Below the pieces are notes generated by a model, which ran no database searches, was not told where the DNA came from, and saw only the letters and a program-made list of their open reading frames with translations. This document shows positions 28,379 through 31,712 of a stretch of 64,000 nt of DNA, one piece after another; positions within the stretch are counted from its first letter, which is position 1; every line of letters begins with the position of its first letter. The translations under genes and the position numbers were made by a program. The stretch spans positions 186,001 through 250,000 of the forward strand of contig NZ_BIFH01000026.1 in assembly GCF_003967355.1 (NCBI RefSeq), read 5' to 3'. Source of the stretch: Embleya hyalina. GTDB taxonomy: Bacteria; Actinomycetota; Actinomycetes; Streptomycetales; Streptomycetaceae.

Positions 28379-29224
28379 TCAGGACCGACGGATCACGATG
28401 TCGCCCGACAGCGTGCGGGCACGCACGTCGACCGTGTCGTCGGTCGGCGCCGGGCCGTCGACCGAGGCCAACGAGGTATGCACCTTGCCGGCCATCGAGT
28501 TCAGGTCGAGCCAGGCGGCGGTACCCTCGCGGATCCCCACCTCCAGTTCGCCGGACGCGGTCTCCAGCCGGATCGCGCCGTGCACCACCTCACCGATCCG
28601 CACGCTGCCGGACACGGTCTTGGCGCCGACGGTGGTCAGCGCCCGGTCCACGGTGATGTCGCCGAGCGTGCTGTTCAGGCGCAGGTCGCCGCTGACCGCG
28701 CCGAGCGAGATGCCGCCGGCGGTGTTGCGGACCACCGCCGTGCCGTCGATCTTGCCGACCCGGATCTCGCCCGCCGCCGCGCTGATGTCGGTGTGGCCCA
28801 CCGAGTGCGCCACGGAGACGTCACCGGCGGTGGAGTTCAGCCGCAGCGCGCCGGTGCGATCCAGTCGGATGTCGCCCGAGGCGACCGAGAGCCGGGTCTC
28901 GCCGACCCGCCCCTCGACGTGGATGTCCGCCGCGGCGGCCTGGCCCTCGATCCGGGAGCCGGTGGGCAACTCGATCGTCACGTCCACCGAGGCACTGCGT
29001 CCGAAGAACGAACGGCTCTTGTTCCTCGGCACGCGCACCGACAGTCGCCCCGAGGTACAGGTGACCGACGTCTGCTCGGCGGCCTGTACGGACGCGGTGT
29101 GCGACGGGTCGGTGGGGCGTACCTCGACGACCGTGTCGACGCGGTCGCTCGCGCTGATCCGAAGGCTGCCGACGACCAGATCGACGGTGGCGAAGATCGG
29201 CTTGGGGGTATCGAAAGCAGGCAT
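28379..29224 (-). CDS. DUF4097 family beta-strand repeat protein
   Basis: A 281-residue protein built of repeating beta units, e.g. GDIRLDRTGALRLNSTAGDV, then AGEIRVGKIDG, then SGDLRLNSTLGDITVDRA. This is the right-handed beta-helix-like DUF4097 pattern. There is no signal peptide: it starts MPAFDTPKPIFATVDLVVGS, so it is cytoplasmic or moves by another route. No enzymatic role is known. The ribbon-helix-helix gene upstream on the same strand (29422-29964), 197 bases away, is its usual partner in Streptomyces. Confidence 0.92.
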   Translation of the reverse strand: MPAFDTPKPIFATVDLVVGSLRISASDRVDTVVEVRPTDPSHTASVQAAEQTSVTCTSGRLSVRVPRNKSRSFFGRSASVDVTIELPTGSRIEGQAAAADIHVEGRVGETRLSVASGDIRLDRTGALRLNSTAGDVSVAHSVGHTDISAAAGEIRVGKIDGTAVVRNTAGGISLGAVSGDLRLNSTLGDITVDRALTTVGAKTVSGSVRIGEVVHGAIRLETASGELEVGIREGTAAWLDLNSMAGKVHTSLASVDGPAPTDDTVDVRARTLSGDIVIRRS

Positions 29225-29421: not shown

Positions 29422-29964
29422 TCACCGCACCCAGCCGGTGTACCGCTGCCTGCTGCGCGAGGTGCCGCGCCGTTCGCGCCCGCGCTCCTCGGCGGGGTCG
29501 AGCGCGGCGGTCACCGTACGAACCAGCCAGGCGTTGACGGACAGACCCGCCCGACCGGCGGCCTGCTCGATCCGAGGCTTGATGTGCTCGGCGAGCCGCA
29601 GCGTGATCCGTGCCGTGCCGCCCTCCTCGGGCTCCGGCGCGGACGCGGCGGGCGGCGGCCCGGGTCGCTCGTCCGGCTCGTCGTCGAAGGCACCGCCGCC
29701 GGCCTCCTCGAACGAGCGGGCGACCGCCGGCGACACCACGAAGTCCGGGTCGAGCCCGCGCAATCGCATGTCGACCGACCCCGGCGCGAGGTCGCGGCTG
29801 ATCTCGTCGGCGGCGGCGGACAGCGCGCTCAGCAGCGCGAGCCTGGTCGCCGATTCGAGCGGCCCGATCAACCGCTCGGCAAGCGCCCGTGCCTCCGCGC
29901 CGTTCGCCTCGGCGGCAACCGCCAGTTCACGGCAGAGCTTGTCGACATACGGCGTGAGGTCCAT
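29422..29964 (-). CDS. Ribbon-helix-helix (HicB-like) DNA-binding protein
   Basis: A 180-residue protein. Residues 1-75 are helical (MDLTPYVDKLCRELAVAAEA). A Pro/Glu-rich linker follows. Residues about 117-156 form the ribbon-helix-helix: ARITLRLAEHIKPRIEQAA, then GLSVNAWLVRTVTAALD. It ends with a basic tail. The HicB antitoxin-like type has no HicA toxin here; it is found next to DUF4097 genes and is probably an autorepressor. The TGACG(T/C)CA array begins in its start codon, so binding would stop both transcription and translation. Confidence 0.85.
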   Translation of the reverse strand: MDLTPYVDKLCRELAVAAEANGAEARALAERLIGPLESATRLALLSALSAAADEISRDLAPGSVDMRLRGLDPDFVVSPAVARSFEEAGGGAFDDEPDERPGPPPAASAPEPEEGGTARITLRLAEHIKPRIEQAAGRAGLSVNAWLVRTVTAALDPAEERGRERRGTSRSRQRYTGWVR

Positions 29965-30036
29965 GACGTCATCATGACGCCACAGTGACGTCATGGCAAG
30001 CTCGACATCAGCACACCTTGACGCCACATGACGTCA
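29964..30036. promoter_or_regulatory. Array of five TGACG(T/C)CA sites, ribbon-helix-helix operator
   Basis: TGACGTCA occurs at 29964, 29986 and 30029; TGACGCCA at 29975 and 30019. The first three start exactly 11 bp apart; the last two lie 10 bp apart and 33 bp further. This is the pattern of cooperative ribbon-helix-helix dimers on one face of the helix. The array overlaps the start of the ribbon-helix-helix gene. Confidence 0.8.
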
Positions 30037-30863
30037 CAGCCCCCCGGAAAGCCCCCCACGAGGGGCCGGCGACAACACCGCCCACCGGTCCCGGCACCGC
30101 CCAAACCACCCCCACCGAGGCCACCCACACCCCCACCCACGACTCCACGCCCCGACCAACTCACCGCAACCCCACACCGGCACCACAACCAACCAAGACA
30201 AGCCCCTCGCCGAAAACGCCCGCCCCCTCGGGAAAGCCCCGCAGACGCGACCAACCCCCCCCTCCCGCCCGCCATCGCCCCCCCACTTCTCGCCAAGCAA
30301 CACACCCACCCCGCAGGAAAGCCCCAGCCTCGAAGCCCCACACACCAACGGCAACCCACCACCGACCCCAACCGGCCCCCGGCACCACAACCGGTCGAGA
30401 CACGCCCCTCGCCGGAAAGCCCGACCCACTCGGGAAAGCCCCCGCGGACTCGACCGACCCCCTTCCCCGCCGGCCATCGCCCCCGCTTCTCGCCGAGCAA
30501 CACACCCACCCCCCGCCGGAAAGCCCCGGCCTCGAAGCCCCACACACCGACGGCGCCTCATCACCGACCCCAACCGGCCCCCGCACCGGGACCGCAACCG
30601 ATCGAGACGCGACGCCCGCCGGCACACCGCCCCCGAACTCACGCCCCCGGCACCCCACTCACGACCCCGACGCCCCGACCCCGCCCCGCTCACCCCGCGA
30701 CGCCGGCCCACCGCTCCCGACCTCACGCCCCGGCGTCCCGAGACCCGCCACCCACCTCGCGGCCCGCCCCACGCAACCCATCGCGCACCCCCGCCCCACC
30801 AGCGCGAGCCACCGGCAACCGGCGGCAACCGCCCCCGTGTCGGCGCGCCTTAGACTTCGGGCC
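30037..30863. repeat. C-rich, strand-skewed region with roughly 200-bp imperfect tandem repeats
   Basis: An 827-base region with no convincing gene. The plus strand is made almost wholly of C, A and isolated G. Two and a part copies of a unit of about 200 bp are seen. For example CTTCTCGCC(A/G)AGCAACACACC begins at 30286 and 30486, CTCGGGAAAGCCCC at 30227 and 30429, and CACCACAACC at 30181 and 30383. Several frames stay open on both strands only because stop codons are rare; none shows a domain. It separates the operator array from the XRE gene. Confidence 0.75.
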
Positions 30864-31712
30864 GTGAGTGAGAACGAGCTTGGTGGCTTCCTCCGTGACC
30901 GTCGCGCGGCGGTCACCCCCGCCGAAGTCGGGCTGCCCGACGGGCCCCGGCGCCGTGACCCGGGGTTGCGGCGGTCCGAGTTGGCGGGCCTGGCGGGGGT
31001 CAGCGTGGAATACCTGACGCGGTTGGAGCAGGGGCGCGACCGACGCCCCTCCGGCCAGGTACTCGCGGCGCTCGCCGACGCGCTCCGGTTGACCTCGGAG
31101 GAGCGGGTCCACGTGCGGCTGCTCGCCAGGGCCGCCACCGGCAACGCGTTCTCCTACGCGGCGGTCGAACCGCCCGCACGCGCGATCCGGCCCACCGTAC
31201 GCGCGCTGCTCGACCGGCTCGAACCGGCCCCCGCGCTGCTGGTCGACCGGCTCGGCAACGTGCTGGCGTTCACCAACGGCTACGAGCGGCTGGCCCGCCC
31301 CCTCGGCATTCTCGACCCGGACCAACCCAACCTGGCGCGCTACGTGTTCACCGATCCCCGAGCCCGCACGGCCTACCCCGACTGGGAGCGGATAGCCGAC
31401 GAACACGCCGCGATCCTGCGCACGGCCGCCGCGTTCGCCGATCCCTACGTCCAGGACTTCCTGGACGGCCTCGCGATCACCGCCGGCACCGTGTTCAGCC
31501 GCCGACTGGCCGCGCCGGCCACCCCGCCGCGCCGGGTCGGCGTGGAACGACTGGCCCACCCGGAGGCGGGCGAACTGCGCCTGGAACGCGAGATCCTGGA
31601 CCTCGCCGACGTCGACCAGACGCTGGTCGTCTACCTCCCCTGCGACGAACCCACCTCCGCCGCGCTCGACCACCTCACCGGCCGCCACCCGGGCGCGCTG
31701 CGCGCGGTCTGA
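30864..31712 (+). CDS. XRE-family regulator with MmyB-type ligand-binding domain
   Basis: A 282-residue regulator. The HTH is RRRDPGLRRSELAGLAGVSV followed by EYLTRLEQGRD (residues about 28-62). The MmyB-like domain has LLVDRLGNVLAFTNGYERLA (about 124-143), then ARYVFTDPRARTAYPDWE and FLDGLAI. The GTG at 30864 follows a weak ribosome binding site. Unlike most of its family, no oxidoreductase gene is divergent; upstream is the C-rich repeat region. It is the second MmyB-type protein in the window (also 3050-3913). The frame is open far upstream through the repeats but without homology. Confidence 0.9.
   Translation: MSENELGGFLRDRRAAVTPAEVGLPDGPRRRDPGLRRSELAGLAGVSVEYLTRLEQGRDRRPSGQVLAALADALRLTSEERVHVRLLARAATGNAFSYAAVEPPARAIRPTVRALLDRLEPAPALLVDRLGNVLAFTNGYERLARPLGILDPDQPNLARYVFTDPRARTAYPDWERIADEHAAILRTAAAFADPYVQDFLDGLAITAGTVFSRRLAAPATPPRRVGVERLAHPEAGELRLEREILDLADVDQTLVVYLPCDEPTSAALDHLTGRHPGALRAV

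Follow-up and report, generated by a model that had tools for sequence, protein, structure and literature searches.

The described systems that come closest to the locus considered here involve regulators and antitoxins of the ribbon-helix-helix (RHH) fold that act on repeated sites or on their own operons. Antitoxins of the HicB/AtaR/TacA type autoregulate a two-gene operon, and the met boxes of MetJ, the E. coli methionine repressor, are contiguous at 8 bp. According to the accessible portions of two papers, the met box consensus is AGACGTCT, with two or more boxes in tandem (PMC4239095), and the number of boxes varies by promoter, with five at metF (PMC3274233). For AmrZ, the accessible text describes an i, i+2, i+4 readout through Lys18, Val20 and Arg22 (PMC3325190). 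An earlier note on this DNA took DUF4097 loci to lack a known mechanism. Some context has nevertheless been published: the accessible part of PMC11237479 mentions an operon of actinobacteria in which a toastrack protein and an ABC transporter are combined with an RHH factor. A gene table for an antibiotic cluster, in the part of PMC9866976 available, has a DUF4097 gene adjoining a DrrA-type ATPase gene. Literature searches with TGACGTCA, and with TGGTGCCA together with Streptomyces, returned no account of the operator described below within a body of text from which most subscription papers were out of reach.

The site array and the promoter predicted beneath it

All coordinates refer to the window, the whole 64-kb stretch of DNA that was analysed, unless they are negative numbers, which count from the start codon of the RHH gene. 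The features are as follows.

29422..29964, minus strand: gene of the RHH regulator (180 aa, start codon ATG at 29964), with a conserved N-terminal part and an RHH domain at the C-terminus
29596..29610, minus strand: putative DNA-reading beta strand R119-I-T121-L-R123, in which T121 tracks operator bases 3/6
28379..29224, minus strand: gene for the DUF4097/toastrack protein (281 aa; PF13349, E=1e-13), probably second in the operon
29964..29971, minus strand: candidate operator site O1, TGACGTCA; begins at -7 and overlaps the A of the ATG
29975..29982, minus strand: candidate operator site O2, TGGCGTCA on the coding strand (TGACGCCA on the plus strand); begins at -18 and overlaps the 5' end of the -10 element
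29986..29993, minus strand: candidate operator site O3, TGACGTCA; begins at -29, inside the promoter spacer
30019..30026, minus strand: upstream site O4, TGGCGTCA on the coding strand (TGACGCCA on the plus strand); begins at -62
30029..30036, minus strand: upstream site O5, TGACGTCA; begins at -72, 10 bp from O4
29994..29999, minus strand: predicted -35 element TTGCCA, at -35..-30
29971..29976, minus strand: predicted -10 element CATGAT, at -12..-7, 17 bp from the -35 element and 6 nt from the ATG

The five TGACG(T/C)CA sites lie exactly where the earlier note had placed them (TGACGTCA at 29964, 29986 and 30029; TGACGCCA at 29975 and 30019), and the array lies over the start of the RHH gene as claimed, reaching from the A of the ATG (29964-29962, minus strand) into the DNA upstream of it. 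Start-to-start spacings are 11, 11, 33 and 10 bp, which agrees with the claim of an 11-bp pitch for the first three sites. The same note had regarded the sites as half-sites for RHH dimers. We reject this because the 8-mers are palindromic or nearly so, as expected of a full dimer site, and because neighbours lie one full helical turn apart. TGACGYCA is found nowhere else in the window (8 matches, both strands counted). Given that dinucleotide shuffling leads one to expect 5.04 +/- 2.60 matches per window on both strands, and that 16 of 100 shuffles reach 8, the number of sites per window is unremarkable and it is their clustering that is the non-chance feature: a second-order Markov model gives 1.82 matches per window on one strand and a maximum of 1 within 73 bp (60 simulated windows), and a Poisson estimate for five sites within 73 bp is ~1e-12. 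Throughout the genome assembly (12,054,215 bases, 78 contigs, 97.93% complete), TGACGYCA-N2-3-TGACGYCA occurs at this locus only (3 matches; 0 for a reversed-pattern control), and TGACGTCA-N2-60-TGACGTCA is likewise restricted to it.

Homologous loci were gathered by protein similarity from named genomes, from genus, family and class searches, and from 59 further stretches; the named-genome set comprises the best 80 of 569 confirmed stretches, and nearer relatives are therefore over-represented. Five of the loci (L001-L003, L009 and L010) are copies of the window locus, and a second piece of L007 is listed as L008. The 200 loci analysed (118 + 82) were reduced to 193 non-identical ones, the window locus included, by collapsing those with the same 60 upstream bases. 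At a match of at least 7/8 to TGRYGYCA, the -29 position is occupied in 176 of the 193 loci, the -18 position in 173 and the -7 position in 169; all three are filled in 142 loci, two in 45, one in 2 and none in 4. Thus the motif that was expected upstream of the RHH gene in homologous loci is indeed there, with at least two of the three positions filled in 187/193, whereas shuffled upstream DNA yielded one site in 80 of 3860 trials and two sites never. The loci with no site are L006, L016 and L017, which are paralogues within the window's genus, and L188, which was retained with its start misread by one codon. Further upstream, the O5 position is kept in an orthologue from a same-genus genome (L011). 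Since the pattern was picked after the first loci had been viewed, those fetched later provide a fairer test. In this later set of 24 loci (L207-L230), from which two partial matches (L222, L228) were omitted, 20 of the 22 loci examined belong to other classes of the phylum; L209 and L215 offer no usable start or residue, and L229 no residue. Between -45 and -5, at least two sites were found in 13/22, one in 2/22 and none in 7/22, indicating that the operator is not universal among distant relatives.

Two variants were seen among the paralogues and relatives. In five loci with a strand of type RINFR (L005, L014, L015, L041 and L076), NTNTGCCA replaces the -18 site and the CA of the -10 element is kept, so that the promoter array is partly eroded there. 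In the window's own genome, at C14:596885-598900 (L006, L007 and L008), two diverged RHH paralogues lie side by side, one with the strand ARADVRV and the other with RINFRPP, the latter without good sites at the three positions.

The sites at -29, -18 and -7 share letters with the predicted promoter TTGCCA-17 bp-CATGAT. TTG is present within -37..-32 in 173/193 loci, compared with 2-16/193 in ten control windows, and [CT]A...T at -12..-7 in 178/193. Because the -10 element owes part of its conservation to letters in which two sites end, further support for the promoter call is taken from the -35 element and from the A at -8, which is found in 85 of 112 loci of the first set. Shine-Dalgarno-like letters occur in 1/193 loci, and the window locus is without any. 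Together these letters suggest a leaderless transcript whose promoter and inferred start both lie beneath the array. With the transcript start placed by prediction at the ATG, the upstream sites would fall outside the transcript, which makes an element acting at the RNA level unlikely.

Beyond the promoter, the exact sites between -100 and -36 (100 in 192 loci) show a 10.8-bp periodicity whose phase matches that of the -29 site (vector length 0.74, offset 0.35 bp), and the window's -62 and -72 sites fit this phase, as the earlier note had remarked. The slot near -40 holds no exact site; a site there would hit the -35 box. A distal array of three or more sites (at least 7/8) between -100 and -240 is found in 72/115 loci of the window's family and NCBI's Streptomycetaceae, against 2/76 in loci from elsewhere. 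Its sites are mostly 10, 20, 30 or 40 bp apart, and the stretch -600..-260 holds three or more sites in 16/191 loci. L019, L047, L091 and other Streptomycetaceae carry up to eight TGRYGYCA-like distal sites, at a 10-bp pitch vs 11 bp at the promoter. The window locus itself has no distal array. Between the two arrays, near -88 to -90 (for example, in L019, L047 and L091), GCAGGTC is present in 32/193 loci, or 36 anywhere within -150..-1, and is perhaps a site for a second regulator. Separately, the C-rich gap of ~830 bp that runs from the RHH gene to the divergent HTH/MLTR_LBD regulator at 30864 contains an imperfect direct duplication (30163-30583) at 200-202-bp spacing, with segments 79-94% identical.

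The upstream sites lend some support to the idea that the RHH protein activates the operon, or both activates and represses it, with upstream sites recruiting polymerase and promoter sites tuning the outcome. Sites at about -50 to -72 and the distal array of Streptomycetaceae would suit such a role, and AmrZ and H. pylori NikR are dual regulators according to the accessible part of PMC3325190. However, the best-conserved sites overlie the predicted -10 element and start, where bound protein would block polymerase, and we regard activation as improbable, though it is the alternative that fares best.

Residue 121 and the operator bases

The RHH protein begins at the ATG at 29964 (MDLTPYVDKL...), a start agreed by homologues; the longest frame begins further upstream. 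We assign it to the RHH superfamily by a sequence pattern of a beta-strand followed by two helices and by modest structure matches. Its Pfam matches (NikA-like, HicB, TacA1) all lie below the Pfam cut-offs, and profile alignments to AtaR-type antitoxins and Arc have E values of 0.04-1.1; in the profile match to Arc residues 9-13, R119, T121 and R123 align with positions 9, 11 and 13. The predicted monomer model (mean pLDDT 79.9, pTM 0.45) leaves the strand unformed; over residues 115-165 it matches chains of CopG, PutA, Arc, AmrZ and AtaR at Z 4.2-4.9. Foldseek returned no match to the model at E <= 0.001 (best AtaR, E 0.38, prob 0.98). R119, R123, S142 and W146 are invariant in 80 sequences. 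The nearest named record, Embleya scabrispora L018, is 76% identical in the RHH protein, and a family match at E <= 0.001, weak ones included, was obtained in 150/394 genomes and 59/138 genera sampled from the class. For the N-terminal domain, a VIA-align search with residues 1-84 gave mostly SMC/Rad50-type chains at Z ~5, which is not distinctive. A HicB of a HicAB toxin-antitoxin pair is not indicated by a score of 16.9 bits against a cut-off of 21, with no HicA among the window neighbours. PADLOC listed no family at E up to 1 for either the RHH or the DUF4097 protein.

The operator bases vary with the middle residue of the strand. At -29 sites of at least 7/8, the loci with Asn at position 121 have G as base 3 in 104 cases and A in 7, whereas those with Thr have A in 26 and G in 3. 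The mean A/T share of bases 3/6 at the -29 and -18 sites is 0.08 for Asn (127 loci), 0.79 for Thr (42) and 0.56 for Ser (19). A majority call assigns every one of the 122 decided Asn loci to the G-type and 33 of the 35 decided Thr loci to the A-type; Ser loci are mixed (9 A-type, 5 G-type, 5 undecided). When protein columns were ranked as predictors of the operator, an approach chosen to allow for shared ancestry and confined to loci with a readable operator (188 for T121), residue 121 came first of 152 testable columns (adjusted R2 0.77), ahead of Q173 (0.64) and E126 (0.54), for which some correlation is to be expected from shared ancestry. It also came first in two subsets of lower identity, below 70% (52 loci; 0.72, with 0.51 for the next column) and below 60% (27 loci; 0.63, with 0.53 for the next). 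In the later loci, A:G counts of half-sites were 1:21 for Asn, 17:2 for Thr, 8:0 for Ser and 1:3 for Asp.

A tree computed with the strand left out shows a minimum of six switches of the residue class, the operator following each time; support for the switch branches is 39, 68, 91, 97, 99 and 100, so that two are weak. Residue and operator do not correspond one to one, as the operator class changes at least ten times against six for the residue class, and well-supported branches supply a single independent pair, too few for significance. The -7 site depends less on residue 121. Bases 4/5, the CG/TG/CA core, are not explained well by any column (best adjusted R2 0.18), and we therefore state the rule for bases 3/6 only. 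Among the putative strand readers (i, i+2, i+4), R119 and R123 are unvarying and hence uninformative, and the covariation concerns the middle residue. Since the operator bases follow residue 121, it is very probable that every RHH protein recognises the array at its own promoter.

The same tracking bears on the view that another regulator, for example one of the OmpR/PhoP type, binds the array and that the RHH protein has its role elsewhere or in a toxin-antitoxin-like partnership. Direct repeats at 11 bp are typical of OmpR-family sites, and the pitch of the array would suit them. However, the palindromic sites fit one symmetric dimer each, and a third-party regulator gives no reason why site bases should track a residue of the adjacent RHH protein, that residue ranking first of 152 columns and the tracking being seen also in later loci. 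We consider a regulator of this kind quite unlikely.

Operon partners

The gene downstream of the RHH gene encodes a toastrack protein by its PF13349 score of 51.7 bits against a cut-off of 22.9. A DUF4097 reading frame adjoins the RHH gene in 187/200 loci; by tblastn in the 194 loci with enough sequence, it lies on the same strand in 183, on the opposite strand in 3 and is absent from 8. Of the 128 loci with at least 2 kb downstream, 84 have a gene for a DrrA-like ABC ATPase there on the same strand and 1 has it on the opposite strand; in Streptomyces 56 of 58 loci have it. No such gene lies beside the window gene, the only matches within the window being ~20 kb away at 29-31% identity, and none is present in the 3 kb that follow L018 of Embleya scabrispora. 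A paralogue in the window's own genome (L005) has one. The other window neighbours are a gene without a Pfam match and the divergent HTH/MLTR_LBD gene.

These partners, together with the position of the sites, make it very improbable that the array is a centromere-like partition or chromosome-organising site, as parC is for ParR. The 10-11 bp pitch, the RHH protein and the two arrays near the promoter in Streptomycetaceae recall such sites; R1 ParR needs two 11-bp repeats and pB171 ParR binds 10-bp repeats, according to the accessible part of PMC9426499. However, a scan of six window proteins detected no ParM/ParA family, the genes usually found alongside encode DUF4097 and often an ABC ATPase, and the three core sites are locked to the ATG. 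Slippage can create short tandem near-identical units, but a chance or slippage-born repeat without function is already refuted by conservation of the site positions, two or three of which are kept in 187/193 diverged loci, the chance estimate for the window being ~1e-12.

Proposed mechanism and comparison with described systems

We believe, with a probability of roughly 0.86, that the array serves as the operator by which the RHH gene is autoregulated and through which RHH dimers limit the RHH-DUF4097 operon. The earlier suggestion of an autorepression array on this gene pair is thus supported as regards the operator array, by the conserved motif and the covarying bases, and fails as regards the half-sites.

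In our model, in which physical binding, cooperativity, repression and the transcription start are inferred, RHH dimers would bind the 8-bp palindromes TGRYGYCA through an antiparallel beta ribbon. The middle residue of the strand, T121 here, would set bases 3/6, with Thr favouring A/T and Asn G/C; under this code, Thr at 121 would prefer TGACGTCA and Asn TGGCGCCA. Three dimers, 11 bp apart on one face of the DNA, would lie over the spacer as well as the -10 element and the point where transcription starts, and would shut RNA polymerase out of the leaderless promoter. Such repression by occlusion would limit the RHH-DUF4097 operon and, in many relatives, the DrrA-like exporter as well. The in-phase -62 and -72 sites should strengthen or extend the complex. 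The outcome would be homeostatic autorepression until the protein is removed from its sites, for which the toastrack protein might serve as a membrane-side sensor or anti-repressor, although this is a guess. A more elaborate version, which we put forward tentatively and think doubtful as a whole, is a phased switch: RHH oligomers would join the 11-bp promoter array to the 10-bp distal array ~100-240 bp upstream in Streptomycetaceae, toastrack protein docked close to the membrane would strip RHH protein from the DNA under envelope or drug stress so that the exporter operon opens, and the Asn-G/Thr-A code would have been switched repeatedly.

Phased autoregulation by RHH proteins is already known, which lessens the surprise. 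What is gained is a candidate operator, promoter and specificity rule for a large uncharacterised family of actinobacterial regulators. Furthermore, the repeated Asn/Thr swaps with matching bases represent a natural experiment on DNA reading by RHH proteins, and the operator offers a handle on what toastrack (DUF4097) proteins and the adjoining exporters respond to.

How does the locus compare with described systems? Like the window protein in our model, MetJ of E. coli is an RHH repressor on tandem 8-bp palindromes with a very similar core, its consensus AGACGTCT comparing with TGACGTCA in the window. In contrast to the contiguous 8-bp boxes of MetJ, the window sites follow a pitch of 11 bp over the promoter and of 10 bp further upstream; the window protein carries its RHH domain at the C-terminus behind another domain, and its partner is DUF4097 rather than methionine genes. 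MetJ was not listed among Pfam matches at E up to 1 or solved structures at E up to 10; the two may nevertheless be related. Antitoxins of the HicB/AtaR/TacA type have in common with the window protein the RHH fold and a weak Pfam resemblance, but are partnered by HicA or an acetyltransferase toxin, whereas here the partner is a toastrack protein. The operon in the PSP survey is very probably the same neighbourhood, combining RHH, DUF4097/toastrack and ABC ATPase genes; its section on that operon, as far as the accessible text goes, gives no operator, promoter or specificity rule (PMC11237479), and the window copy is without the transporter. In ParR/parC of R1 and pB171, as the accessible part of PMC9426499 describes, an RHH protein acts on direct repeats of 10 or 11 bp that precede its own operon; in the window, by contrast, the sites are palindromes locked to a predicted leaderless promoter, with no partition partner among the six proteins scanned. 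By analogy with these systems, we propose that the RHH protein would act on its tandem sites in the manner of MetJ, at a pitch like that of ParR, and that the array probably represents a variant of RHH autoregulation.
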